A DNA stretch of 64,000 nt from Tubulanus polymorphus (taxonomy: Eukaryota; Nemertea; Palaeonemertea; Tubulaniformes; Tubulanidae). Made by a program: the position numbers and the translations under genes. Below, one piece after another: positions 1,427 through 62,314 of the stretch. The notes under the pieces were generated by a model, which ran no database searches, was not told where the DNA came from, and saw only the letters and a list, made by a program, of their open reading frames with translations. Position 1 is the stretch's first letter, and each line of letters starts with the position of its first letter. The stretch covers positions 24,464,153 through 24,528,152 of the forward strand of contig NC_134028.1 in assembly GCF_964204645.1 (NCBI RefSeq), written 5' to 3'.

Positions 1427-2746
1427 TTAATACTTTTGCGCCGAAATACACTTCTTCTTGCAATCAAAGATAGATATGAAATCCGAGCGAAAATCACGAA
1501 TTGTGTAAAGATAAATGAAGAAATTTGTTATGAAGGCTAAAAAGCGAAAACTTTCCGTAATTTCTTTTACATAAGTCGCTACGTCTGCTGTTCTGTTACT
1601 GATTCTATCCGTAGTCCAGACCCATAACTGAAAACTTCGAGTTCCCCTGTAAAAAGCCAGTGAATGACGTATGGGATATATATAATGGTTAATCTGTACG
1701 CTGATCTCTTTAATCATAACGCTGGTTGAATACGGACCTATCAGAACTATGAAAACGAGCACGACACACGTTAATGTTTTGTGGGCTCTGATATTGGGCC
1801 TGCTGCCCTGGTTGGTTTCAGAATTCCCTATAAGTTGGGTTTTGCGAATTCGAGATGAGATTTGAGAAAACGTCGTTAGAACAGTGAAAATGATACATAT
1901 AAAGATTGGTAGAAAATCACTGATGAATGAGTGCACATTACGGTACGCAGTCACCGTTACTACTATTGGATTCGGCATCCTACGTACTGTTTGGTCTCTA
2001 CATAGATTAGTATAAACAAATGTGTCATTTATGTTTGGAAAATCCCTCATTGTCCGTTTAACATCGCTTCTTAACTTCACGCCTTCAAAAATTTCAATCA
2101 CTACCCAGGGGGTACAGAGCACCACTAGAACACATATGACTATTTTTCTTAGTCGTATAGTGACGTGTCTCATGTGAGTGAACGGTGAATACACGGCCCA
2201 CCATCGCTCAACGGCCATCGATATTACGATCCAATTACTGACAAAACTTGACGACGCGGCCAACGACCTGATTATATAACATAATGGTGGAAACAGATAT
2301 GTGATATCGTACAAAATCAGATAATTTATGATCGGGCAATCTCTATGTATACGTCTACGTCCCCAAGTGGATGAGAACCAGAATGCACCGCATAACTTAT
2401 TCAATTTCGGGAACAGTTCGACGAAAGCACTCACCCATGGTTGCAATTGTACAAGTCCCTTCGAAACGACAAAAACCTGGTCGGATATTGCAAGAACGAA
2501 GATAAAAATGAACATTGCCCGGATGGAAACTTTAGCGCGACATCGAAACAGAATAACGATTGAAAACGTATTCAATACGAATCCGATTGGGAAAATGAAA
2601 ATGGGTAAAGCGCGTCGGATATTTTGAGCTAGCTCCCAGTAAAGAACATACGGAGATGATCTACTCATAACGCCAGCGAATTGAATGGCTCGAACTGTTG
2701 CTTGAACTTCCAAACTGCTGAATTGATTTCTTGATAAAAACCTCAT
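1427..2746 (-). CDS. Intronless rhodopsin-like (class A) GPCR
   Basis: A 439-residue open frame from one exon, reading as a class A G-protein-coupled receptor of the plasma membrane. Landmarks are Asn59 in TM1, the LAISD motif with Asp89 in TM2, Cys119 before TM3 paired with Cys249 in extracellular loop 2, an E-R-W triplet (180-182) in place of DRY, Pro338 in TM6, and NFFIY (408-412) in place of NPxxY in TM7. These substitutions are common in invertebrate peptide-receptor-like orphans, but the ligand cannot be inferred. One oddity: Cys119 and Glu180 are 61 residues apart, against about 24 in typical class A receptors. Roughly 37 extra residues therefore interrupt TM3, either as a real insertion or as an unrecognised short intron. 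The loop before TM7 is also long. The start is the first Met of the frame; Met27 is an alternative. Confidence 0.82.
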   Translation of the reverse strand: MRFLSRNQFSSLEVQATVRAIQFAGVMSRSSPYVLYWELAQNIRRALPIFIFPIGFVLNTFSIVILFRCRAKVSIRAMFIFIFVLAISDQVFVVSKGLVQLQPWVSAFVELFPKLNKLCGAFWFSSTWGRRRIHRDCPIINYLILYDITYLFPPLCYIIRSLAASSSFVSNWIVISMAVERWWAVYSPFTHMRHVTIRLRKIVICVLVVLCTPWVVIEIFEGVKLRSDVKRTMRDFPNINDTFVYTNLCRDQTVRRMPNPIVVTVTAYRNVHSFISDFLPIFICIIFTVLTTFSQISSRIRKTQLIGNSETNQGSRPNIRAHKTLTCVVLVFIVLIGPYSTSVMIKEISVQINHYIYPIRHSLAFYRGTRSFQLWVWTTDRISNRTADVATYVKEITESFRFLAFITNFFIYLYTIRDFRSDFISIFDCKKKCISAQKY

Positions 2747-3677: not shown

Positions 3678-3813
3678 GAGAATCTAATGGAAGCTAACAC
3701 AGAACGATGCTCGGTAAATAGGGGGATTGTCACTGTTACTCTTTACTCGGCAATCATCAGTTCAGGTATAATCAACTGTCCCTGCACGATAGATGTGTTA
3801 GATACTTTTTATC
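3678..3813 (+). promoter_or_regulatory. Upstream block shared by both GR-like genes
   Basis: The bases just upstream of the first GR-like ATG match those upstream of the second copy (about 6533-6668). Both contain a G-rich run followed by GATTGTCACTG, then TACTCTTTACTCGGCA, then a run ending TACTTTTTATC directly before the ATG. The block probably holds the 5' UTR and core promoter that were duplicated with the gene. This function is inferred from position and conservation between copies only. Confidence 0.4.
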
Positions 3814-5932
3814 ATGCCGGTTGTACGTATCAGTCATAACAGCAATCCTGATGCTCCGCCAAAAATTATGAATAGTGTTCAACAGTTAAAAGAGAACAAA
3901 CTATGGATTTGCTTGCGACCGATTATCTTATGTTTCAAGGTGTTCGGTATTTGGTATGACACCGACCTGCCGGGTTACCCCGGTGTGCTGCATAAGATCT
4001 ACTGTTACTTCGTATATTCTATCAAACTCGTCTTTTTCGGACGCGCTTTGATGACGCTCGTGGACCCGGCGTGGACGATCGAAAACACCACTATGACGCG
4101 TCTTATTTATCTCATGTACGCCATGTTGCCTGTGCTTTGGGGAATTTCGGAAATTTACGCGTCTAAGAAGCGCTGGATCCAGGAGATATGCTTGCGATGG
4201 CAGAAGATAGCAATTCCGACGTACATAGAAGATGAACAGCAAGAAAGCATCGATCACAACCGTGAGCGTTATTTGAAATCGCTCAGAAGATGGGTGATCG
4301 TTTATTGCGTGGTCTCCGTGTTAAGTTCGGTGATATCACCTATTTGGGTGTTAACATCTCAGTTTGTATCATCGGACACAACAACCTTCCCAATGCTACT
4401 GGAATTCACCTATCCGCTTTCTACGGCAAGCCCATATCTACCGTATGGCCTATCGTTTCTGGTTATATTTCACAGTTTTAGTCAAATGGACATAATTCTA
4501 TCTATGAGCTTCTTCTTACCGTGTTCCCAGCTGATCGCCCACGAGTTTGACTCTGTAAATGCTTACACCGAAAAAATAATCGAGGATCCAAATTCGACGG
4601 AGGAGCTCACCGATATCTCCAGTTCTAAAACCTGGCACCAAGCTGTTTGTAAGCTTTTCGAACCTATCCAAGATTACTTTTCCGTCTACATAGCTTCTGG
4701 ATACATCGTTTCAGTGGTTATACTTTGCTTAGCCGTGTACGACATCATTCAAAGAAGCGACGACCACAATAAATACGATTTAGAAACGATTTTATCCATG
4801 TGTTTTTTCGTGGTAATGTGCGCCATTTTCTTCACTGTTGTCACCACAATGGCTCTTCGCATCAACGTAAAGGTAAGCTCGTATGATAATTCTGACTTGT
4901 ATGATTCAATATACATCTTTTATATTGAAATAGAGAATTGCCTTCCTCATTTATTTGAATGATTTGATTTTATGTCATTTCCATTTTTGATGCACACCTT
5001 ATACAAACAAACTCACCACTCTGCCGAAAACGAAACGGGGGTTTGTTCGTTTTGGATTAACAGTTAGTTTATTTATACATCTTAAGTAAAAAAAATATGT
5101 AATCATATGAAGTTGGGTTTGAAGTTTGTATCGAGTTTGGTTTTGCTAAGGACCGTGGAACCGTTAGATAATGTACCCATGAATTGGACATACACCAAAG
5201 TCAGTAAACGGAATCATCTATAAACAATGTGTGTAGCAGTCATTTCTTATTCAGGCACATGCTGTCGTAGGTAAGCTGTACTCGATCAATTCAAAAAAGC
5301 TGGGCGCAGAATCAAGAGATGAGGTATGAAACATTGCGATTGAATAAAAATCATCGCCTTAATTCAGTTACTTTCAGCAAAATATGTCGTTGAGCATCTA
5401 GAAAAAACTATTCCAATTTGATATGATAAGTGTATTACAACATCATTTCCCGTATTTTTAACAGTCATCGTCAAGTACAATCATAATTTTCAACTAAAAT
5501 ATTTTAATCCCATAGAATTTCGCTTTATCAAATAAATATTTTTACGAAAAAATATCTTCTATTTGTGAACAGGTTATGATGTTCATTCACCAGTTAACTG
5601 GACCGCCTATAGGATATAGCGGCTTAGGTCTGGTGACAATAGATGCTTCATTTCTAACTTCGGTGAGAATTTCCTTACTGTCATAACTACACAAAAAAAT
5701 TTGAGTCTTCATTGATCAGGAGACTATCGTACATTCCCCCTATTGGTTTTACAGTAAAATATCATATTCAGTTGCTAACATTAAATGAATCAAATTCAAG
5801 CTTTTTTTTCATTTGCAGCTTCTGGGAACCCTGCTTACTTATTTGATCATTACAATACAGTTCAAACAAGCCGCTAGTGATAACAGTTCAACAGCGTCAA
5901 CCAGTCAGAACGATACGGCTGCGAGTAAATAA
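3814..5932 (+). CDS. Gustatory-receptor-like 7TM protein, copy A
   Basis: Four exons joined by phase-0 introns: 3814-4872, 5255-5323, 5573-5662 and 5819-5932, giving 443 residues. The product is strongly hydrophobic, with seven or more membrane stretches, a long cytoplasmic-type loop rich in charged residues (about 118-160), and a last helix carrying TYLIITIQF. TY, five hydrophobic residues, then QF is the hallmark of insect gustatory receptors and their animal-wide GR-like relatives. A phase-0 intron just before the exon coding TM7 is also typical of that superfamily. Members are usually ligand-gated cation channels with an intracellular N-terminus; the ligand here is unknown. The Ser/Thr/Asn-rich tail after QF is unusually long for a GR. 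A consensus AATAAA lies at 5948-5953. The tandem neighbour is a close paralog. The GR assignment rests on the motif and gene structure, not on a search. Confidence 0.8.
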
Positions 5933-6532: not shown

Positions 6533-6668
6533 GGAGAATTTAATGGAAAATAAACACTGAACGATACTTGGTCAATAGGGGGATTGTCACTGATACTCTT
6601 TACTCGGCACTGAGTTCAGGCACAGTCATCAACTGCTCCTGCACCGTAGGTGTTAAATACTTTTTATC
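6533..6668 (+). promoter_or_regulatory. Duplicated upstream block of GR-like copy B
   Basis: Counterpart of the block before copy A, with the same order of short conserved strings ending TACTTTTTATC before the ATG, plus several small indels. Retention of this region in both copies suggests both may be transcribed. Promoter function is inferred. Confidence 0.4.
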
Positions 6669-8860
6669 ATGCCGGTTGTACGCATCAGTCATAACAGCAA
6701 TTCTGATGCTCCGCCTAAAATTATGAATAGTGTTCAACAGTTAAAAGAGAACAAACTATGGATTTGCTTGCGACCGATTATCTTATGTTTCAAGGTGTTT
6801 GGTATTTGGTATGACACCGACCTGCCGGGTTACCCCGGTGTGCTGCATAAGATCTACTGTTACTTCGTATATTCTATCAAACTCGTCTGTTTCGGACGCG
6901 CTTTGATGACGCTCGTGGACCCGGCGTGGACGATCGAAAACACCACTATGACGCGTCTTATTTATCTCATGTACGCCATGTTGCCTGTGCTTTGGGGAAT
7001 TTCGGAAATTTACGCGTCTAAGAAGCGCTGGATCCAGGAGATATGCTTGCGATGGCAGAAGATAGCACTTCCGACGTACATAGAAGATGAACAGCAAGAA
7101 AGCATCGATCACAACCGTGAGCGTTATTTGAAATCGCTCAGAAGATGGGTGATCGTTTATTGCGGGATCTCCGTGTTGAGTGCAGTGGCATTGCCTATTT
7201 GGATGTTGATATCTCAGTTTGCATCACCGGACTCAACGACTCTTTCAATGCAACCCGAATTCATCTATCCGCTTTCTGCGACGAGTCCATATCTACCGTA
7301 TGGCCTATCGTTTCTGGTTATATTTCACAGTTTAAGTCAAATAGATGTAGTTTTTTCGATGGGCTTCTTCTTATCGTGTTCCCAGCTGATCGCCCACGAA
7401 TTCGACTCCGTCAATCGTAACGCCGAAAAAATAATCGAGGATCCCGATTCGGAGATCAACGATATCTTCAGTTCCAAGACTTTGCACCAAACTGTTTGTA
7501 AACTATTCGAACCTATTCAAGATTACTTTTCTGTCTACATAGCTTCTGGATACATCATCTCAGTTGTTACACTTTGCCTAGCCGTGTACGACATCATTCA
7601 AAGAAGCGACGACCACAATAAAAACGATTTAGAAACGATTCTATCCATGTGTTTTTCTGTTATACTTTGCGCCATTTTCTTTACCGTTGTTACCACAATG
7701 GCTCTTCGCGTCAATGTGAAGGTGAGTTCGTAGTAATTTTTTGGGTGATCGTTTGAATCCCGTTTTTCTTTAGAACACACACGAATTTATGATTTATTGA
7801 TTTAATATTCATCTTTTTATCATGAAATGAGGAGTTGTTCCTCTTTGATTTGTTTTGATGTTTTGCTCATTTTTGGTGTGTCCCATACAAGCCCGCCATC
7901 CTCGAGAACTAAATAGGGGTTCATAGTTTTTTAACAACAAATACTTTACTTAAAACTATCTTCAGTGAGACTCATAACAAAACAGTTTTTGGTTTGGAGT
8001 TTTTATTCTATTGCATTCGAGTGTGATTTGGTTTGGGTAAATGTAATAAGCATTTAAACAGAAATAATCAGACATCGTGAAATGAATTGCACAATCACAT
8101 GTCACACAAGACAATGAACTTAGTCATCTATATACAATGTGTAGAGGTCTTCCTTTTTATTTCAGGCACACGCTCTCGCGGCAAAACTATATTCGGTCAA
8201 TCTGAAAATGCTGGGTGCAGAATTAAGAGATGAGGTATTGAAGTTGAACGGCGTATCGTTTTCAACTAATTACTCCCATATTAAAAGCATATTACGAATA
8301 TTTTGTTGAGTTTTAAGAGCACTCTTATCTTGTAATTTAATGATTTGAATGTCAAGTTGCAAAGTTAATTGACACCAGAACGTTTCGGACGTTTCCTAGC
8401 AGCCATCGTCAGGTGGTATTTAAATTATCAACATAAACAATTTCCTCATTGGATTTCCTACTTTATCAAATACATATTTACGAAAAATACTTTCTATTTG
8501 TTGACAGGTTATGATGTTTATTCACCAGTTGAATGGACCGCCGATAGGATATACCGGTTTAGGTCTGGTGACCATTGATGCTTCATTTCTAACTTCGGTG
8601 AGAGTTTTCGTATTTTCATAACTACACAAGAAAAGAACTATGGATCAAGAGACTATCGTACATTCCCCCTATTGGTTTTACAGTGAAATATCATATTCAG
8701 TTGCTAACATTAAATGAATCAAATTCAAGCTTTTTTTCATTTGCAGCTTCTGGGAACCCTGCTTACTTATTTGATCATTACAATACAGTTCAAACAAGCC
8801 GATAGTGATAACAGTTCAACAGCGTCAACCAGTCAGAACGATACGGCTTCGAGTAAATAA
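6669..8860 (+). CDS. Gustatory-receptor-like 7TM protein, copy B
   Basis: Exons 6669-7721, 8166-8234, 8508-8597 and 8747-8860, all phase 0, encode 441 residues with the same layout and the same C-terminal TYLIITIQF signature as copy A. The first roughly 165 residues differ from copy A at only three positions. Residues about 166-300 differ at a few dozen, and include a two-residue deletion in the acidic loop before SSKT. The last two exons are again nearly identical. Introns 1 and 2 have diverged in length and sequence, but the 3' half of intron 3 is nearly unchanged. No stop or frameshift is present, so both copies look functional. The canonical AATAAA seen after copy A is AGTAAA here (near 8876), so polyadenylation may be weaker or elsewhere. 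Confidence 0.8.
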
Positions 8861-13408: not shown

Positions 13409-28352
<14,944 letters not shown>

Positions 28353-29476
28353 ATATATGAAATATATATGTATATATTGCTTAATCTATCACCTGACGAG
28401 AGTTATAAAAGTTTTGATCGTTTATTGTGTCCGGTGAAAAGATATTCCAAACTCAGGCAACATGCCTGATAAAACAAGTCCAAGTCGGACTCGTCTCATT
28501 CCGCTATTTCAATGCGACAACTCGAGACAATCCAACCGCTGCTGATGAATATATTCGCTCGAACGCCTCGGCTTTACATTATCGTAATCAAGACACCGTT
28601 CAACTCGAATCGAATCTGAAATATAAAAACAATGCTTCGTTTAACGTATTCATCGCGATTATATAGGATGTGATGTTTGTGTCGGTTCGCACACGTGACT
28701 CGGCGACTAATTAGTGATTTGAAGTATGAACGATGTTTCTAAACGCTTGTTGTTGCGGTCGAGACTCGCTCGCACTTCGAGGTTTGATTAGATTTAAATC
28801 TAATATTCGAAGACGATCATTAAGTCACGATATACTTTCGAGTCCTTCCCTCAGTTTGCACCCGTGAACCTTATCCGAAATTACGATACATGCGCAATTT
28901 TGTTTGATAACAATTGCACCTCAATTCAGTAAATCATCGTTTTCCATCAAGGTTGCGAAAAAAATGACAATCTTATCTTCAATCCGTCTTATCTTACAAT
29001 AACTTGTATGATTCACTCGAACTATTGTAATTTAATTCGTGAATATGCATCATCATTAAAGGCCCGGTTCCATAGACGAGACTTAGCGACATTACATTCT
29101 TTACAATGAAATTTACCTTTTATCTAACTGATGTCAAAATAAACTTAACTAAACTAAACTTAACCTGACGATACCAAGTCAGCAAACAAGTAGACGTCAT
29201 GATAACCTAAATTAAACTCGATGTTCATATCTTGCCTCGTCGCAACCGTGAATAAATCTAATACCTTCAGACAGAAAAAAGGCGGAGCACAGAACGTGGT
29301 AGTTAATCTGAAAAAATACCGCAGAAAATCCCGCTAACCGCGGACAAACAACTGACGAAAGTTTGATATGCAAAATCTTTGCCTCCCCCAAAAATCTCGT
29401 TTCAAAAATCGAGAGAAAATTCGATTTTTCTCTATAATGAAATAATGATATCTCCTGTTTTTCCACTGTATCAAAC
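28353..29476. other. 5' flank of the guanylyl cyclase gene
   Basis: Upstream of the guanylyl cyclase start codon on the minus strand, so promoter and 5' UTR should be here. No exon or RNA gene is recognisable. Short open frames show no domain. Confidence 0.45.
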
Positions 29477-41852: not shown

Positions 41853-47381
<5,529 letters not shown>

Positions 47382-49323: not shown

Positions 49324-49505
49324 GTTCAATATCATGTTTTTGTCTTAACCGTGTTTGGCTTGCTGTGAAAATTACCACGTATTTCTCCACGGAGTTGCGC
49401 TGGAAATCGTCTTCCAATGGCGACGTGTTGGGATCAAACATCTGACTTGTAAAACATTTAGCTTTTGAGTCAAGGTTTTAGAAAAGACTGACGAGAAAAT
49501 CGAAA

Positions 49506-50564
49506 ATGAATGGAACCGTAAATATTACGGCAAGTGCTCTGCAGCCTGGTGGTGACGACAGCGGAATATACGAGCGTTCATCACTACCAGGCTTCCCGGG
49601 TGCGACCATAGACTTCATGTCGGGCAGCGAACAGTTAAAAACCAGATACGGCGCTATTCTCTTCCTTGTCGGCTATTTCGTGATAATTGTCGTCGGATTT
49701 ATCGGTAATTCGACGACTATTTTGATCATGTGCCGGAAAGTCATGCGCCGACATTCGTATTCCGTTTATATTATTTTCATAGCGATAATTGATAACTGTT
49801 GTTTAAGTATTTGTGCCGTAGCTTGGCTCAGCGTGTCCGCGTATCTGCTCACCGGACGGCGTATCAAAACACCTTTCTCCGCGTCTTACCTGGGATGCGT
49901 TATTTCAGATTATATCGTCCAGTTGATATATTACATCAGTTTGTGGATTATGGTTACCCTATCGTTAGAACGGTTTGTTGTAGTTTTCTTCCCACTGATT
50001 TCGAAGCAAATCTGCACCAGCAGAAATGCAACAATAGCAACTTCTTTGACGTTTTTGTTACCGGCCCTGTTTTGTTTATATTTCCCTTTATACCCGGCAT
50101 ATCGTGATATCAGTTCCTATCCGGCCGGGCCTTATTTCTCTTACCGCGGGGTTTGTTGGTATATGAATAAGCCTGCCCGGATAGCTATGAAACTAAAAGC
50201 GTCGAACACCATCATCGCTACCTTACTCGTTTCGGCAATTAACGGTGCGATGATTTTAAAATTACGTATCTCAAGACATAAATTCGAACATAAGAAAAAC
50301 AGAAATGATAAAGTCAATAGAACGACGGTAGTACTGATTCTAATCGCTGTGTCCTTCGTTGTCGGTATGATTCCAACAGTAATCGGATATTTGGTGAATT
50401 ATTTGTTAAGAGTCATATCTGATTTTGAAATGTCGGATATCGGCTGGGGTGTACTGTTTAATATGCAAGATCTGTTCAATGCTCTTACACACGCGACGAA
50501 TTTTTTTATCTATCTAACCGGTGCTGAGATGCGAACTGAATTCTTGAAACTGATCAAAATGTGA
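49506..50564 (+). CDS. Intronless rhodopsin-like (class A) GPCR
   Basis: A 352-residue single-exon receptor. The N-terminus is extracellular, with possible N-glycosylation at Asn2 and Asn6 and no signal peptide. TM1 holds GFIGNST (Asn68), TM2 IAIIDNC (Asp96), TM3 begins at Cys131 and ends E-R-F (155-157), the likely partner Cys217 lies in loop 2, TM6 holds Pro290, and TM7 ends NFFIY (332-336). IC3 is basic (HKFEHKKNRNDK), as expected for G-protein coupling. The E-R-F and NFFIY variants resemble neuropeptide-type orphan receptors of invertebrates (FMRFamide-receptor-like groups), but the ligand is unknown. Size is normal for the class and no TM is missing. It shares the NFFIY variant and the lack of introns with the receptor at 1427-2746 but is not a close copy. 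Other Met codons (38, 75) lie too far inside to be likely starts. Confidence 0.85.
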   Translation: MNGTVNITASALQPGGDDSGIYERSSLPGFPGATIDFMSGSEQLKTRYGAILFLVGYFVIIVVGFIGNSTTILIMCRKVMRRHSYSVYIIFIAIIDNCCLSICAVAWLSVSAYLLTGRRIKTPFSASYLGCVISDYIVQLIYYISLWIMVTLSLERFVVVFFPLISKQICTSRNATIATSLTFLLPALFCLYFPLYPAYRDISSYPAGPYFSYRGVCWYMNKPARIAMKLKASNTIIATLLVSAINGAMILKLRISRHKFEHKKNRNDKVNRTTVVLILIAVSFVVGMIPTVIGYLVNYLLRVISDFEMSDIGWGVLFNMQDLFNALTHATNFFIYLTGAEMRTEFLKLIKM

Positions 50565-52291: not shown

Positions 52292-55200
52292 CTAGTGATA
52301 AAACTCAATAAAAGTTTTGATACTTCGATAAGCATATTCATAATGACTACCGGTAGAGTTATCTGAACCCTTGGCTTTATTGCGGCGTTTTTTCCAAAAA
52401 GTAAAGTATTTTCCTTTATTTTTGATTCGCTGTGTTATAAAGTGCAATTTCACGTCACGTACTGAAAACACTTCATCACACGAACCAATGAGTTCTTTCA
52501 AATCCTTGAGCTGAAAAGATAAGATTCAAAAAAAGGTAAAAATCTAGAGTCTCTTTACGTATCAAATGTTGAAATGTCTCGAGTGTTGAAATGTCACAAG
52601 TAGGTTCGAGTCCAATTTCATAAGACGACTTTTTATAGTTTAGTTAGTCACGATAACACAAAATCAATGGAGCTTTGACTTCTGGATCCAGCAAATGGAC
52701 TCAGGGTCAAAACATCAGAAACAAACTTTACATTTTAGCTCACTTTTGACTAAAGCTCAGTTTCACAAAATGTTAACATTTTCGTTGAATTTTAATTAGC
52801 TGTCGCTAATTTTCAGTTTTTCAAAGAGGAAAACAATTAAAACTTAATCATTTTATACTTAAGACTTTTTCCTGACACTGGAACCAGAATCTAAACATTG
52901 CAATTTGTGGAATACAGAAGCATTTTTTTTTAATTAACTGTCGTTTTATCTCTTGTTAGTAATTAGTAATAACTCCCAGGGTCAATCGCCTACAGTCATG
53001 GCTTGAGCGCAGTCTACTCCTGCGAACTATTTTCATTCTGTGATGAAACCGTGTCTCGGGTACTACATACACTACCGACACCAGACACACAAACTACGGC
53101 TTTTAATCGTGTTTTCATCGTGTATATGAAATTTATGCATTTATGCATAGCGTCGTGGAAATTGATAGCCCGATATGTTTGGAGGCGTCGATAAGTTTAA
53201 TAAACTTCAAATTATATTCACAAATTAAGTGGTCTGTTTACCGCGGGGAGAAGTTGCTCAGAAGTTGGTTAAGAGTTAACCAGTGGATAGTTGACATAGT
53301 GACAATTAAAAGTTCATTGTTACTATGGTATTTATCCGCTGGTTATCTTTAACCAACTTTTGAGCAACCGGCCCCTCAGTCTCGGCTCGGCCAATCCAAC
53401 AACTAAAGACCATCCTCATATTCCGGTTCATATTGTATCTAAGATTTAAGAACATCGCGCAAATCATCCCCGAACCAATCCTATACACTATACCGAGATT
53501 CAGTCGGATTTTTATGACGCTAATGCTTTTCTAAATCTCATATCGATCAACCGGTATTTTCAATCAGTGTTATTAACTATACAGAGTTGCTGAAGGCAGA
53601 TGAACGCGATGAGGCATCGAGGAACGACGCACTATTTTCGCTAATGCAACATAATTGCTGATTAAATTTCGCCTGAGCGACGTTGTTGAACGCAAACAAG
53701 TGAATGAAAGTTCTTTTATTTTGCACTGCTTATTCTAGCATATTTGTTTTGGATCTAGAAATCTATTCGAATATGTAAAGTAACCGATAAAGATGTATAG
53801 CGGACTGTTACAGAGCAAACTGATGGGAAAGCGAAGGTCCAAGTTGAGGATTGGAAAAATACGTTCCGAAGTCAAAAGATGATTTCGTTTCGTCAGAAGT
53901 CCCAGTTGGCCATATCGATTTCTTTCTGAATCGGATTTCTCGAATCTTCGAGAAAACCGCATGCACAGCCACGGACAACTTTTGAACATGGCTCATAGAA
54001 TTATGTCTAAACGTTACTACTCTCTTAGTTTTTGAAAATGTCTCATAGAATTGAGTCTAAACGTCACTCCTCTCTTAGTTTTTGAAAATGTCTCATAGAA
54101 TTGAGTCTAAACGTCACTACTCCCTTAGTTTATCATAATTGCGTTTTTTTCTACTTAATTCTAATTGACGCACACCGCAAGATGCTCTGATATTCACACA
54201 ATCAGTAGAATCGACTCTCTCGCATTCTGTCACATCCCCCGCAAATGATCATCTTGATCTTGTATGGACAATATCTCAATGTAATTTCTCAATGAAATGA
54301 ATTCGTGATATTTCATAAAAACACGCAAAAATAGCGTATACACATTGACGTACACAAGATTCATCAATTATTTATCGTATCAACCACGAAATAACTGTAT
54401 CATCACCGCGGTGATAGCGCTTCTCGAGAGAGAAACAAGTGCTTTTTTGCCCTCGAATGTTGTTGCTATCTACTTGAGAATCCCACAATGTTTCGGTCTA
54501 AGCAAATATTACATCTTCGAAACCGAGAGGAGCAGTGATATACGTACTCCAGTGTAGATAACAACTTAAACAGATAAACTAACTATTTAGACGATTCGAT
54601 CTGAGTAGGAAAGAATGATGGCGATTGCTAAAAGGTTTCAGCTCGACTCGAACGGAAAACACTTGTTTTGAACGATGTAAGAAACAGAAGATACAAGACT
54701 CGTTTCGGCGCGCGTAACCAGTTAATAAAAAACAAACCGTTCCAATTGTCAGAGTTAACTATACCCCTAAAGCTGAAAATATTGCGAAATTATCCGAAAT
54801 GCAGCGACAAGGAAATGCTTATTGCAAGCTTCCTCGTAGGTTCTACGCCGAGACGGCATCATTAAGTGCATCAACGAACGCGTTAATCGCTACTTAAACA
54901 TCGATAAGCTGCTTTAAGATTGTCACCTTCGTCTTCCGGGAGCGTACTTGACTATTATACCGTCTAGACCAGACCAGACCGATCATACGTCGTCAGCGAA
55001 TAGACTGATATTCTGTACCCCCCGGGAACGGATTAGATGACTCAGGTGAACTTTTAAAAAAAAGAAGAAAGTTTCTAGCCGTTGAACTAAGTTTCTTCTG
55101 TTGTGAATATCCATAAAATTATTCAGAACAAGGGCTTTCTGATACACAGGCAATGAAGCAAAACATTAAGTTTTTTATTTATTAGTGGTGCACATATGGT

Positions 55201-58200
55201 GTTAGTGGTGCGATCACTGATCTTGTTTCTCGCTCATCTGGCTTAACGTCGTCGGGATCTTGGTTTGCCAAAACTAACCCTATTGGATTATTCATGTTTA
55301 ACCTCATGACGGGACCACTTCCTTTAAAACGATACCCGCGCACTGTAAGCAGCCAGCAGGACTCGAACATCGCGACCTGATGGCCGTTAGGAAACACCCG
55401 GGTGGTGATCGCGATAACCTTTTCAATCTTTGAACTTTTAGTTTTCAATTGTGGCCATACGTTTCGATCGCTATAGATCCATCCCTTCTGAAGCCGTGGC
55501 TGGAGGAACGTAACCTTTCACTTCGAAAATAGTTTACAATCTAATTTACAATCAATTCTATCGGCTTAGTTCATGTTCCACAGGAGCCATACATCTAACG
55601 GGAAAACGAGGAAAAAAACTGCTGATGTCGAAGCAAATTGCTCGTACTTTGTAAGCGTGTTGCTACTTGTAAATCGCGCTAATCCTGAAGGAGGCGTCGA
55701 CTGCAGCATTTTTAACGTGAAATTCGCATTTATTCAAATACATGCGCGACAGCATTATCGCTTCTAGCATAATCGAATTGTTCGATGACAGACAAAAGTA
55801 AATTGAGGACTACATTAAAAAAAACACCAGTCTCGCAACGTCTCAGATATAAAGAACAAGTCAATGGAGAATTCCCGATGACGAAAAGATTAAGTCCGAA
55901 AATGTTTCCTTGAGCTGGTAGTTTATTCGACGTTTCGAATATATTCTGAATTAAGTCATCTTCAGGAATACATTGAAACATCGAATGAACTACCAGCTCA
56001 ATGAAACATTTTCGGACTGTAGGCCTATATTATTTTTTGCTATGATTGTGGGATTATCTATAGGTTATCGTCGCAACACGGGTATAGTGTTTTACCAATG
56101 GTTATAAAGAACGTTCAAAGTGTTTTCAGGTTCTTACAGATCAGGTAATCCGAAATTCTCTAATATTTCCCTGATTTTCCCGACCCTTGACGGTACCAAG
56201 AATAGTCTGATTAAATTGTAAGATATCCTCGGTGGGGGCTGTTGTTCATCAAGAGGTTCCTAGTGCCACCGAACATCAGCTTAAACAACACAACACCAAA
56301 TATTCAAGACTGTAGTGAACTGATATAAATCTCAGTACAGTTAACGAATAAAAACCCACAGTAGATTTGAGGAACAAAAAATACAATTATGAAGTTTATT
56401 GTATTTTTTGTTCCTCTGAAGATGAGGTTTAGTTTTAACCTGGAAACTTTGAGGAAATGAACTGTTTCTACAAATCTACTGTGGCTTACCGTTTATTCAC
56501 CAAATATTCAAATTCCTTGATTTTCTCTTTATTTTCAAGAAGAATCGGAATTCCCAGTCAAAGTAACAACGAATGATGACATAGAATTAGAATCAGCTAG
56601 AGTTTAAAAAGAGTAAAGGTGATTTTTGTTCGCGGGGTAGTCATCCGTAGATTTCTGAGAAACATCGAGTAGACTGTCTGAGTACCGCTGGGAATAAAAC
56701 AGAGCCCAGTCAGACACGCTCAACACAATTACAAATCTTAAAGCGATTTCTTAGAGTTTCTCATTGCTGTCATAAATGAACATTATTATCAAGTTTACGG
56801 TGCTTTTATCCGTATTTAAATTTTTTAATGGCTGCGTAACGTTGTATATTCAATCTCTTTCGAGAAACACATGTTCCACTTCGAACAATTCAATAATCCA
56901 ACAATTCTACAAGGTGTCACTTTTATTTCACTTGCACGTTGCTTTATATGAGATTCATTTAATCAAATGCTTACCGATGCTGCATAGTATAGTTTTTGCC
57001 TGAAAATAAAATTGAACATTTTTATCAAAAGGAAGCTTTCTACAGTAGACTCCGCTCGTGTCGGATCTGATCAACTCGAATTTTTGACGAAATATTTTCT
57101 GTGACAATATTCAAGAAAACATAGCATCAAACTTGGATGTCGGACACATTTTTAAGTCCCAAAAGATCAGAGAGCGGAGTCTACTGTACAATCGAATCGA
57201 TACTAGCTGTGTCTTAGTCTTTTATTCTGACGATGAGAAGAAATTAGAAACCGTTGTTTTTTTGCTCTGATGAAACTGCTTTATTATTCATAGAACTAGT
57301 GACAACCAGAATTAGTAACTAGAGCATCGAGAAGCGTTAACCGCTTGTCAATAGTATGTATTCAATACCCGGTGACCTGTTCCTAAATTCCAAATTGGGT
57401 AGAGTTGAATTATTGGAAATGAAATTTAAATGGGATTAAATGATTTTAAATGGGAGCCTATTCAAATCAAAATTGTGAAACTGGACACTGGTGTGAAGCA
57501 CCAGCAATTAAAGCTTAAGAATTAGTCAGCCCCGTTAAAGTTAATGATTGAGATTCCTAGCTGATCAGCAGAACCAATACGCCACCTAACTCATTAACTA
57601 TTTACCTCGTCATCAGTTTTGGCTTCAAACGCGTGACATTGGAACTCTTTTGATAGCGTGCACGTCGTTTCACTGAAACCAGAATAGTTTACCATGAACC
57701 ATCGCAATATCTGTCATTTTAATCAGTGTACAGTTGTCAGTATCAGAACAGAGTTTAACAATTCCTCATCTTAGACAATCGAGTTAAAAATGAACTTATT
57801 TCAACTTATATAGAAAATGATTGTATATATTCTGTGACCAGTTGGGGCATGCCCGGAATAGAATAACCTACCCAGCTAAATATGCGAATATCTTTACACA
57901 ATCAACCCTGCGACCACAGGCTGAAATTTCCGTGTAGGAATGTCTCATAATCTCCTGAAAAATTCACAAAGAAACAAACTTCAGATTTATCAAACTGATA
58001 CCGAATTTATGCTATATTTTTCAGATATTTTTCTTCACCTCTTCGCTATCCATTTCAGTGACTATCACATCTTTTTCTCCGAGTTCGAAAATAAACGTCT
58101 GGAAAAAGAAGACCGTGATATTCACATCATGAACCGTAAAAAAATAACACAGGATATTATTTCCCTCTTTCCAAAATCTCTCAAAAAAAGTTAATTTTCA

Positions 58201-61200
58201 GACAACCAGAAAATGCCACCGATCACCTAGAAATAAAAGCTACCTTAGATTTTTCTGATTCAGCCTAGAAAACACAAAAAATTTTTTAAAAAATATCAAA
58301 GAAATATGTTAACTCGTTCATGGCACGATCCATTATCACAGATCTGAGTAAAGTTTGACTCATATTCGTGTGAAAATAAGTTTATTTTCACTGTTTTGAC
58401 TCATAATTATGTTACTGATTGGATCAAGACAATTACTTTGAAATATTTACTTTCTTAAGACTTACTTTCGACTTTTCCTGTTCCCGAATTTTATTGATAG
58501 CTATTTCGATTTGATCGACGCTGCCGTCCTGAATTCAAACAGATGAAACGAACCAATGATTGAAAGAATAGAAAAATGAAAATTTACTGTTTCGGAACTT
58601 TGATGAATATAACTTACAGTTCCTACGAATGTGTTCCCGAGATATTTCACTATATAGCGAGCCCTAAAATAGAAATCTAATTTCTTATGAAGCTGACTTA
58701 CAATACAGCATCCCTGATTTAAAGCTTATTTACAAATGGCTATTCACTGATTTTTGTAACAAAAAGGAATTCCCAGACTTTTCCCAGATTTCCAAGTAAG
58801 CGGCCACCCTGACTTAAAATCAGATCCAGTATTCAATATCTATTTAGAAAGCGTGCTGATGGATAGTGACTTTCTAGAGCGCGAGAAATAAGGTGTGCTG
58901 CACGTACTTATCATCAGGATTAGAAACCGGAACCTCCTCGAGTTCGTCTTCGGGAAGCTGGGCGTGCGGCGGTATACGAGCGGTCTCAGCACGCGCCGCA
59001 CGCCGTAGTTCCTCTTCCTCTTCTAACAGTCGTTGTAACGAATCGATATTTTTGCCGACTTTTTGAAGCAATTCGATGATCGGAGGAAACACGGTGCCGT
59101 TCAGCAGACGACATTTGATCACAGACATGTAAATCGGAAGACCTTGATTCTCTTTCAATACGGCGGACATCTAAAAATAAACAACATGTTTCCATAAACT
59201 AGTTACACATCCAGAGGTGGATCCAGCCTCTTATCCTGAATAATAACATTACAGGAAAACTTTTTTAAATTTTACCATCTTCAGATGCATTCTGAGCATT
59301 TGTGGAGATGATAGATTTAATTTTCCAAACATCGACCCAAAATAACTTAAACTTAAAGAAAAGTTAAACGAGTTGAAAAGCAAATCCTTAAAATTTCAGA
59401 CGGGGTTTGAAAAATAATTTGGTATTTGGAGCATACTAGAAGGTCATAAACATTATTGAAAACAAATATCGAAGAACACAGAATTGTTTCCTTTTATTTC
59501 AAATACCTTTCCTCGTTTGACGCCGCGAAGTGGAATCCCGTATAGTTCATCTAACACATCGCCTAACTCGATTTTATTCTGAAAATTGAGATCACCAAAC
59601 AATTAGTAGTGGTTAGAAATTTTAAAATCGTAATGCCGAGATTCTGTAAGTATGTAAATAAGTAAAGCACCATCAATATGTACACAATTAATAAATAATA
59701 ACAAATTTAATTAGCTAGGTGAAAAAAATGATTGCTGTTGAGCTTAAAAGTTGACTCAGCTGGCTACCTATCTACCCTGTACATTACTTTCTTTTATAAA
59801 TCATGATCACACTAGCCATATCAGACTCCGCAGTTATAGAAATTAACTGAAACAAACTTTATTGCAGTTTACAAAAGTAACCCGGCCGATTAGAAGAAAC
59901 AAGGTATCATCTTATTTTAGCCTAAGCAGTGAAGTACATATCACGCAGATGACAGGAGCCATACAGGATGTTCAGACACCCTGACAATAAGGCAAAAACA
60001 AAAACAAATGAAAAGGGATGGAGACTTACATCTTCTTCAGCGACGCTGCCTTTTTCTACGTAGGATATTATTTGCCTACCATCAATATGTCTGAAATTGA
60101 TGATTTATCAATACAGTTTTACAGAGCTAACACAAATCTGCAGACGAAACTCATTAACTTAAAACTTACTGGACTAGAATTCCTAAATCTTTGCACGGAA
60201 CAAATTCATACTTTTTATATAACTGGAAATAGAATCATTGAATTAAATATCAAAGGAAATTTGCTTTTTCTACCTGAAAATTGGTGTTATCTACTGAAAT
60301 AAGCAGCATTACTTACAGGCATTATCCAAGTTTCATCCAAGAAGGTACAGCACTGGAAATAAAGCAAATTTCTTTAACAGCTTAACAATTGTCAGTTACA
60401 TTTGATTTTAGGATTCAAATAAGTTCATTCCATATGTTTTAACAAGGGTCAAATTTTTAAATGAGAACTGTGAAACTGGATCCGCAGAAATGGATCTAGT
60501 GGAACTGGGTACAAAACTGTGGAATTGAATCTAGACATTTTAATTAACTTCCGTATCAGTGATATATGTCATAAAGAGTCAATATCCTCCTACCTTCATG
60601 TTAAGTTTGAAATTTATTTCAGCAACTTCGTGTAGCAATGACAGGAATATTTCTATGTGAGAAAAGCGAGAAATAAAACAAAACGGTTTCAAATACTGAA
60701 CAAAATATGTCTAAATCTCGAAACGAAAGAAAGATCATCTTCATCTTACCGCATAGAATTTCATTTCCAAGGACAGAAAACAGCGGATCGTACCAGGACT
60801 AAAAAGAAATCCAACAAATCATTGATGAATCTTTTTTAAGAAATTTCGCTAAAGAAAATGCTCATCCGAATTTACTAACCTCTAAGAACGGGCGATTTTT
60901 GATCAACATTTCCACGGGATATTTCAGGCACTTTTTCTGTAAAGCGAATCTAATGAAGCAACGGCCACGACCTTGAGCGTACTTAATCTATCAACAAAAA
61001 AATGAACAAATCAAACATGAACATTCCGAATAAAGGACTAAGGTTTAGGTTTAAGAGTTAACTCACTGAAAATGAAATGATTTCATACTCTGCGGTGCAG
61101 AAATCTAAAAACTTTTTTAGGAAGCATGTCATAAATTCTATGTTCATATTCTTTTACACTTATGTAACCTGACATTTTTGTAAGCATTTTAAATGCATCT

Positions 61201-62114
61201 TTGGGCTTAACAAATTATCTTCTATTATTTATAACATAATCAAAACTAAACTGACCTTTGATACTCCACGTATTGATGTCACTACGAGATTAAATGTAGG
61301 ATTATAGCTACAAAGAAAGAGCGAGTAATAAGAAATCTTGGTAAGGTCAAATGGATTCAAGAGGCCAAAAGTTTGTTTAAAAGTTGATTGATAATAAACT
61401 TAGTTTGACAACATTAGAACAGGTGCTCGTGTCATCTAGAGGGATAGCTCACTGGTGGTGCAGTTCATGCACATGTCACAGTGATGTCTTCCCACTTTGC
61501 CTCTTTCCCATTTCACTCCATTGAACGTCTTCGGAAAGGGTCAAAATGGGAATAAACCGATAATAACAAATGTGCAAAACTTACGAAGATCCTTGTATTT
61601 TATCGCACATGAAATTGATCCATTGCCAGTAATCTCGTTTTTGTATGCCGAAGAAAGACGCTGTATCTGAAGAATTAAACAGCAATCAATGAAAATGATT
61701 GGTGGCATGGATCATAGTATGATCATGGACGTACATGTTTTAGAGTTTAAACTCTAATGTCTGTTTCAATTTTGCTTGAGGCCTACAATATTCATGTTGC
61801 AATACAAAGGAAAGCATCTTGAAGAAGTCAGAATTCAACAGCATCCTTATCCAACTCATCCTACTTTCGCCCCCTCCCCCCTCCTCTCATCTCACTCCTT
61901 TTCTCTCCATGGATCTGCTGCAGTCATTACGAACTAACTAGTATCTAAAATCATTCCCTAACAACCCGTACATTGTCTGGTATTTCAGTCTGGTAACAAA
62001 CTTACTTTTCATCCCTTTTCTGAATATGTTTTCAATTGTCCTGCAGAATGGTAACAGCATAGGATGGTGATTGGAAATTGGAACATTGCTCAATCTTAGT
62101 TCAGAAATATAACC
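52292..62114 (-). CDS. RUN - PDZ-like - PTB domain adaptor protein
   Basis: Exons in transcript order: 62114-62006, 61666-61585, 61307-61256, 60981-60880, 60798-60750, 60652-60594, 60352-60317, 60222-60170, 60090-60030, 59578-59507, 59170-58908, 58663-58618, 58528-58466, 58098-58039, 57954-57872, 57672-57606, then probably 52510-52292 with the stop. All phases agree (419 codons before the last exon). Residues 1-165 form a RUN domain: YWQWINFMCDKI, YAQGRGRCFIRFAL, WYDPLFSVLGNEIL. Residues 165-250 look like a PDZ fold: VPCKDLGILV, VEKGSVAEED, IELGDVLDELYG. A Glu-rich coil follows (LEEEEELRRAARAE). Residues 312-419 are a PTB domain: ARYIVKYLGNTFVG, MRHSYTEISACGRRVD, KIFAYLAGETTC, FQCHAFEAKTDDE. 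RUN domains usually bind small GTPases, PDZ binds C-termini, and PTB binds NPxY tails, so a cytosolic trafficking or receptor adaptor is likely. The 5' coding start is unsettled. Confidence 0.78.
53981..54131. repeat. Tandem repeat, three copies of a 50-bp unit
   Basis: The unit runs CTCATAGAATTGAGTCTAAA then CGTCACTACTCTCTTAGTTT, with starts at about 53991, 54041 and 54091. It lies inside the long intron proposed for the RUN-PDZ-PTB gene. Confidence 0.85.
55182..55526 (-). other. Possible coding exon of unknown affiliation
   Basis: An open frame of about 115 codons ending at a stop near 55182. Its composition looks coding: few low-complexity runs, with peptides such as QPRLQKGWIYSDRNVWPQL and IAITTRVFPNGHQVAMFESC. 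A possible acceptor CTCCAG lies near 55503, phase 0. It could be an alternative terminal exon of the surrounding minus-strand gene, a separate small gene or a transposon fragment. No family was recognised. Confidence 0.3.
55894..56017. mobile_element. Hairpin repeat, arms about 50 bp
   Basis: The left arm reads GTCCGAAAATGTTTCCTTGA, then GCTGGTAGTTTATTCGACG. The right arm reads GAATGAACTACCAGCTCA, then ATGAAACATTTTCGGAC. The short centre contains CATCTTCAGGAAT. A half copy lies at 19852-19935. It is non-coding, within the long intron of the RUN-PDZ-PTB gene. Confidence 0.75.
56369..56455 (+). repeat. Hairpin plus third copy of the GATGAGGTTTAG repeat
   Basis: GAGGAACAAAAAATACAA (56369) pairs with TTGTATTTTTTGTTCCTC (ending 56416). 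It runs straight into GAAGATGAGGTTTAGTTTTA and ACCTGGAAACTTTGAGG, the diverged third copy of the repeat at 14490 and 17398. This shows what may be the fuller form of that family, a hairpin followed by the conserved tail. Confidence 0.55.
57043..57186. mobile_element. Tc1/mariner-superfamily-like MITE
   Basis: 144 bp with inverted ends CAGTAGACTCCGCTC and GAGCGGAGTCTACTG, flanked on both sides by TA, the target duplication of Tc1/mariner/pogo elements. CAGTAGA-type ends are common in pogo/Tigger-derived MITEs. It has no open frame. It lies just downstream of the last PTB exon. Confidence 0.8.
61435..61570 (+). mobile_element. tRNA-derived SINE
   Basis: An A-box-like GGATAGCTCACTGGTGGTGC near the 5' end is followed by TCTTCGGAAAGGGTCAAAAT and GGGAATAAACCGATAATAAC, an AATAA-type tail usual for invertebrate SINEs. 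It lies in an intron of the RUN-PDZ-PTB gene, on the opposite strand. Confidence 0.5.
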
Positions 62115-62314
62115 TGAAAATGTTCAATTAATGAATAAACGAACCAATAAGCGCCTAGCCAGCGATATGACTGACGTCGACGACGTTTTTTCGATACTTT
62201 TTATCGAGAATCAAATCAACTTTAGTATAGGGGCTTAACTTTCAAATAAATAGAATATTAGATATTGAAGGGCTACCTTTGAGGTCTTTTAGAAGTGGAT
62301 CAGTCACTGACATA

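Follow-up and report, generated by a model that had tools for sequence, protein, structure and literature searches.

A predicted spliced gene combining RUN, PDZ-like and PTB domains in a stretch of Tubulanus polymorphus DNA

Structure of the predicted gene

The window, i.e. the whole stretch of DNA that was analyzed, comprises 64,000 nucleotides of Tubulanus polymorphus contig NC_134028.1 (positions 24,464,153 to 24,528,152). By listing splice sites and joining exons, we found on its minus strand a gene that runs from 62313 to 52476 and encodes a protein of 452 residues (coding length 1359 nucleotides, with the stop codon counted in). A RUN domain, a PDZ-like domain, a Glu-rich stretch and a PTB domain follow one another in this protein. 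As a predicted gene, the chain is well supported, and the prediction is a credible one. Its 19 exons are separated by 18 introns, all 18 of which have GT-AG borders, and the phases are compatible throughout. The introns measure 79 to 606 nucleotides, except for the last, which is 4464 nucleotides long.

All of the exons lie on the minus strand. Exon 1 (62277..62313) begins with the ATG at 62313 and ends at a donor at 62277; it encodes residues 1–13, the N-terminus ahead of the RUN domain, contributing MSVTDPLLKDLK plus the initial base of the codon that follows. The RUN region (residues 13–177) is encoded by exons 2–8 (62113–62006, 61666–61585, 61307–61256, 60987–60880, 60798–60750, 60652–60594 and 60352–60317), and the initial part of the PDZ-like domain (residues 178–239) by exons 9–11 (60222–60170, 60090–60030 and 59578–59507). 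Exon 12 (58908..59170; 263 nucleotides) is entered in phase 0 and left in phase 2; within its residues, 240–327, the PDZ-like domain is completed and is followed by the Glu-rich stretch and the residues that lead up to the PTB domain. That domain (residues 327–442) occupies exons 13–18 (58663–58618, 58528–58466, 58098–58039, 57954–57872, 57672–57606 and 56999–56975), and the coding part of exon 19 (52476..52510) supplies a junction codon, QGFERTHWFV and the stop, that is, the end of the PTB C-terminal helix. The last intron (52511..56974) contains a tandem repeat at 53980–54131, made up of three 50-bp copies with 92% matches.

An original prediction, based on the sequence of this DNA, had described such a domain chain as seventeen exons in perfect phase, spanning 52292..62114. 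A single spliced chain with all phases fitting was indeed recovered, and the five motifs quoted for it (including GRGRCFIRFAL, YLGNTFVG and FQCHAFEAK) were located in minus-strand exons. The exon number and the boundaries required revision: there are 19 exons rather than 17, the ATG at 62313 is outside that span, and the stop is at 52476, not at 52292. From the coordinates and exon count of the earlier model, we infer that exons 1 and 18 are exactly those that it missed.

Two splice choices affected the domain scores. Starting exon 5 at 60987 instead of 60981 adds two residues, and the RUN segment then scores 65.2 bits vs. 57.6. Exon 18, of only 25 nucleotides (56999–56975), encodes AKTILCSI plus one base and shifts the frame of exon 19, giving ...AKTILCSIAQGFERTHWFV; the PID score of the PTB segment is 35.5 bits with this exon and 28.3 bits without it, and the exon also lengthens the PID match. 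The fit of the phases counts for little by itself, because splice sites can be picked to make phases agree. The RUN and PID profiles, however, match over many exon junctions, which excludes chance.

Domains of the encoded protein

A Pfam search of the spliced protein placed a RUN domain (PF02759) at residues 35–165, encoded by exons 2 to 7, with a score of 63.4 bits against a cut-off of 22 (E 3e-17). The match covers positions 2–130 of the 131 in the model, i.e. the whole model. Compared with solved structures, the RUN part was nearest to FYCO1 (E 1.3e-9, residues 8–174), RUFY3 (3.2e-6) and RPIPX (3.7e-6), with weaker matches to PLEKHM1 (0.02) and PLEKHM2 (0.33); the remaining two of the seven rows were cytochrome c552 chains (E 1 and 1.9). 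In the alignment from this search, R100, R102 and R106 preserve the R-x-R-x-x-x-R spacing of PLEKHM1 R117, R119 and R123, where we assume that the numbering of the PLEKHM1 chain equals that of the paper on it. Excerpts of that paper (PMC5379943) report H60, R117, R119 and R123 of PLEKHM1 as important for Arl8b, with R117 and R119 mutated together. PLEKHM1 H60 falls outside the aligned stretch, and the comparison covers three of the four basic residues. The arginine pattern supports a working RUN domain, as far as sequence can indicate, and does not favor Arl8 in particular. According to the portions consulted of PMC7431699, PMC3634510 and PMC3338420, RUN domains mainly bind Rap and Rab GTPases, and also motors and other partners.

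The middle segment, residues 176–261 (86 residues), yielded 83 matches with E-values no higher than 5 when searched against solved structures. By molecule name, PDZ proteins made up 56 of the best 60 of these 83; the 56 rows are not independent, since the same few proteins (DLG, dishevelled, PALS1) account for many of them. Several PDZ families were present among the matches listed (GRIP1, MPP7, PTPN13, LNX, neurabin, GIPC1 and others), and four of the matches listed were not PDZ proteins (two V-ATPase rows, eS10 and S17). The best PDZ E-values were modest: 4.9e-4 for GRIP1, as a sum over two individually weak PDZ domains, and 0.0038 for MPP5/PALS1. Control searches yielded a single match for the shuffled segment and two for the reversed one, with PDZ proteins in 0 of 1 and 0 of 2, respectively. 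Residues 176–261 are thereby supported as a real, divergent PDZ-like domain, so far as sequence comparison can tell. The GLGF loop is the carboxylate-binding element of PDZ domains, and its position in the middle segment is occupied by KDLGI; peptide binding by the PDZ-like domain is possible.

Toward the C-terminus, Pfam PID (PF00640) matched residues 348–448 (exons 14 to 19) with 32.8 bits against a cut-off of 20.9 (E 8.6e-8). The match corresponds to positions 32–133 of the 140-position model (starting at 31 or 32 when the search of the PTB segment is included) and leaves the first 30 positions uncovered. Among solved structures, the PTB part was nearest to ANKS1B (E 4.7e-4 and 0.0032) and LDLRAP1 (0.0016), followed by Numb (0.12); the other four of the eight rows were unrelated proteins. 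The end of exon 19 aligns to the PTB ends of ANKS1B and LDLRAP1, and F445 lines up with a Phe in the C-terminal helices of both. This helix Phe helps PTB domains to hold NPxY peptides.

These results bear unevenly on the domain claims of the original prediction. The RUN domain is secure in the sense that the profile search of the spliced protein returned it above the curated cut-off. The PTB domain, which had been called full, likewise exceeded its curated cut-off as PID, but its first strand, YLGNTFVG, sits outside the match. The PDZ-like segment was upheld by solved-structure matches with clean controls, and by no Pfam profile above its cut-off.

Comparison with known proteins

RGS12 unites a PDZ and a PTB domain, and the PTB domain of Mint is accompanied by two PDZ domains. 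To our knowledge, neither Mint/X11 nor RGS12 has a RUN domain, and we know of no human RUN protein that bears a PTB domain. The likeness of our predicted protein to Mint/X11 (PMC9203973, in the part consulted) and RGS12, which we compared by description, lies in the presence of PDZ and PTB domains in one protein. With RUFY/FYCO1 proteins, which are organized as RUN, coiled coil and FYVE (PMC7431699, in part), it shares an N-terminal RUN domain, and FYCO1 and RUFY3 provide the nearest solved RUN structures; here, however, PDZ-like and PTB domains take the place of FYVE. Membership in the RUFY/FYCO1 group was rejected, as Pfam gave no FYVE at E up to 10. PLEKHM1 and PLEKHM2/SKIP, Arl8b effectors with RUN and PH domains, also have an N-terminal RUN, and the R-x-R-x-x-x-R of PLEKHM1 is kept; they differ in that their RUN match is weaker and that Pfam detected no PH or C1 domain in our protein, which has a PTB domain instead.

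The PTB adaptors ANKS1B and LDLRAP1 offer the nearest solved PTB domains, at a distant level of similarity, yet in the present protein a RUN domain stands in front, and no ankyrin or SAM domain was detected by Pfam. SGSM1 and SGSM2 (RUN, Rab-binding domain and TBC, per the excerpted text of PMC13090580) resemble it in having an N-terminal RUN followed by another domain, whereas in the present protein no TBC domain was detected, and the domains beyond RUN are a PDZ-like one and a PTB of the PID type. A TBC-family RabGAP of the SGSM or TBC1D4 kind was rejected as well, because Pfam found no TBC at E up to 10.

RUN and PTB domains in one protein were not found in the literature (main texts of open-licence papers). 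In the passages of such papers that mention both terms, PLEKHM1, Rubicon or RUNDC3A was mostly named beside an unrelated PTB term, and a lungfish paper (PMC4378924) gives RUNDC1 and PID1, in the portion consulted, as separate genes. The original prediction had ventured an undescribed adaptor family, and this idea is compatible with the literature result; because only open-licence literature was covered and no animal proteome was compared, that result is not proof of novelty. Among contigs, the full protein gave five pattern matches in viruses and the PTB part gave 62 in prokaryote and virus genomes, with none confirmed in either case; both were single-protein queries that reach close relatives only. 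As the collections searched hold viruses and prokaryotes, these misses are uninformative on animals.

On sequence grounds, RUN-PDZ-PTB looks like a new arrangement of known domains, not a new kind of machine. It is quite likely that the protein belongs to an orthologue group that is annotated but nameless in public databases, in which case the value of the present work would be the annotation to be made. A bolder proposal, a conserved, undescribed invertebrate RUN-PDZ-PTB family that is absent from vertebrates and would connect NPxY receptors to an Arl/Rab-type GTPase in the choice of lysosome- or axon-directed cargo, appears doubtful to us, and we put it forward tentatively.

Proposed function, alternatives and other features

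RUN and PTB domains occur together in one predicted spliced protein. What might such a protein do? We favor, with a probability of about 0.5, a cytosolic scaffold that would link membrane cargo to vesicle transport; its binding steps are extrapolated from the domain families. The PTB domain would most likely dock the NPxY-type tail of a membrane protein, and the partner of the RUN domain would most likely be a motor complex or an active small GTPase of the Arl/Rab/Rap type. The central PDZ-like domain might hold a further partner. In this way, a single membrane cargo would be connected to the transport or tethering of vesicles. A trafficking role is favored by the nearest solved RUN domains (FYCO1, RUFY3/RPIPX, PLEKHM1 and PLEKHM2), which belong to trafficking adaptors; this characterization draws in part on excerpts of PMC5379943, PMC7431699 and PMC9203973. 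The receptor-tail-to-GTPase adaptor that had originally been suggested is reasonable from the domain families, from which its binding steps are also deduced. 

A title cited in PMC13174285 states that the C. elegans RUN protein UNC-14 binds kinesin-1 and UNC-16, and the excerpted text of the same paper treats the PTB-bearing JIP-1 as a protein separate from UNC-14. In the examples met in the literature, the connection of cargo tails to transport thus relies on RUN and PTB domains in separate proteins, which makes a single-chain protein of interest: with both domains in one chain, the coupling of a RUN-GTPase contact to tail recognition could be tested directly.

Several points weigh against the scaffold proposal. 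The gene is known here from genomic sequence alone, and the splice choices for exons 5 and 18 were made with the domain scores in sight. Its codon usage is also unremarkable: the mean log-odds per codon was 0.05 for the coding sequence vs. −0.02 (standard deviation 0.09) for 204 presumed non-coding open reading frames. With six stretches of the window as training data, this scoring barely distinguished exons from presumed non-coding frames, and we therefore gave it no weight in support of the gene model. For the middle of the protein, Pfam reported no PDZ in the full 452-residue sequence up to an E-value of 10, and a 98-residue middle segment matched only PDZ_6 (E 0.17), whose 12.1 bits fell short of its cut-off of 27. 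The arginine pattern of the RUN domain does not predict a GTPase, as it varies among relatives: it is also present in RUFY3 (RGRAWLR), but Lys replaces the first Arg in FYCO1 (KGRAFIR), and Tyr replaces the third in the Arl8b effector PLEKHM2 (RSRAWLY). A review (PMC7431699) likewise notes, in the part consulted, that RUN structure alone does not set GTPase specificity. To these points should be added two reports on PTB domains that recognize something other than a receptor tail: the excerpts of PMC13090580 describe binding of the PTB domains of RABGAP1 and TBC1D4 to Rab36 and Rab2a, and those of PMC9203973 describe contact between JIP1 and kinesin-1 via the JIP1 PTB domain.

Both reports lend substance to the main rival explanation, which accepts the same single gene but has the PTB and RUN domains serving GTPases or motors at both ends, with no receptor tail. 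A precedent is PLEKHM1, which engages Arl8b via RUN and Rab7 via its second PH and C1 region (PMC5379943, in part). We nevertheless regard this explanation as unlikely: the PTB domain is nearest to ANKS1B and LDLRAP1, RabGAPs were absent from the structure matches (although their presence in the searched set is unconfirmed), and Pfam detected no TBC domain in the protein.

The remaining alternatives concern the gene itself. Two neighboring genes, or alternative promoters, could yield two proteins, one of RUN-PDZ type and one of Glu-rich/PTB type, the latter starting at the ATG of exon 12. Indeed, this ATG (59170) opens the exon, an internal promoter could give a shorter product, and retention of the intron after exon 12 would close the frame at 58874 (open reading frame 58874–59170). 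However, the PDZ-like domain finishes within exon 12, which encodes its last helix and strand (KMSAVLKENQGLPIYMSVIKC, residues 240–261, of which the leading K alone comes from exon 11), together with the Glu-rich LEEEEELRRA (residues 288–297), a stretch that is probably helical, and most of the NPDDK before the PTB domain. That all three lie in one exon argues for a single gene; a division at this point would sever the last helix and strand from the PDZ-like domain. Moreover, exons 12 and 13 are just 244 nucleotides apart, and the phases agree. We consider this division very unlikely. Hardly more plausible is a genuine C-terminus like that of the earlier model, in which exon 18 is skipped, the frame continues to 52292 and the protein ends in a longer basic tail, be it as the sole product or as a splice isoform. 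Its 72 codons are open, phase 0 is kept, and PID still lies above its cut-off at 28.3 bits. This score nonetheless represents a drop of 7.2 bits, and in codon usage the tail does not stand out, ranking at the 18th percentile of the 204 presumed non-coding frames. In addition, neither AATAAA nor ATTAAA occurs from 52292 down to 51900, whereas AATAAA is found twice just beyond the stop at 52476 (at 52420 and 52381, 56 and 95 nucleotides away); we treat such signals as no more than supporting, because this A+T-rich sequence has many of them (30 places over the part scanned).

Elsewhere in the window, there was no second copy of the gene: all 16 tblastn matches at E up to 1 were its own exons. No tRNA or Rfam matches were found in the window. 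We scanned 18 of the 61 stop-to-stop open reading frames of at least 85 residues with Pfam; seven had no match at the thresholds used, and one had a weak Retrotrans_gag match (E 0.098). Two tandem plus-strand frames, 3802–4959 and 6657–7730, agree at 315 of 358 aligned residues, and PF02949 (“7tm Odorant receptor”, 7tm_6-like) is matched above its Pfam cut-off by both (E 5.4e-9 and 4.6e-7). As this family is typical of insects, the pair would be noteworthy in a host that is not an insect. On the minus strand, 14690–28385 contains exons resembling those of a receptor guanylate cyclase, with ANF receptor first, then kinase-like and finally guanylate cyclase pieces; of the six, four exceed the Pfam cut-off, and 27828–28385 (ANF receptor) and 16016–16270 (kinase) are just below. 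Rhodopsin-type G protein-coupled receptor frames without visible introns are located at 1430–2746 (minus strand) and 49482–50561 (plus strand), with 7tm_1 E-values of 2e-13 and 4.3e-13. Finally, a (TA)n microsatellite of 76 copies occupies 45095–45246.

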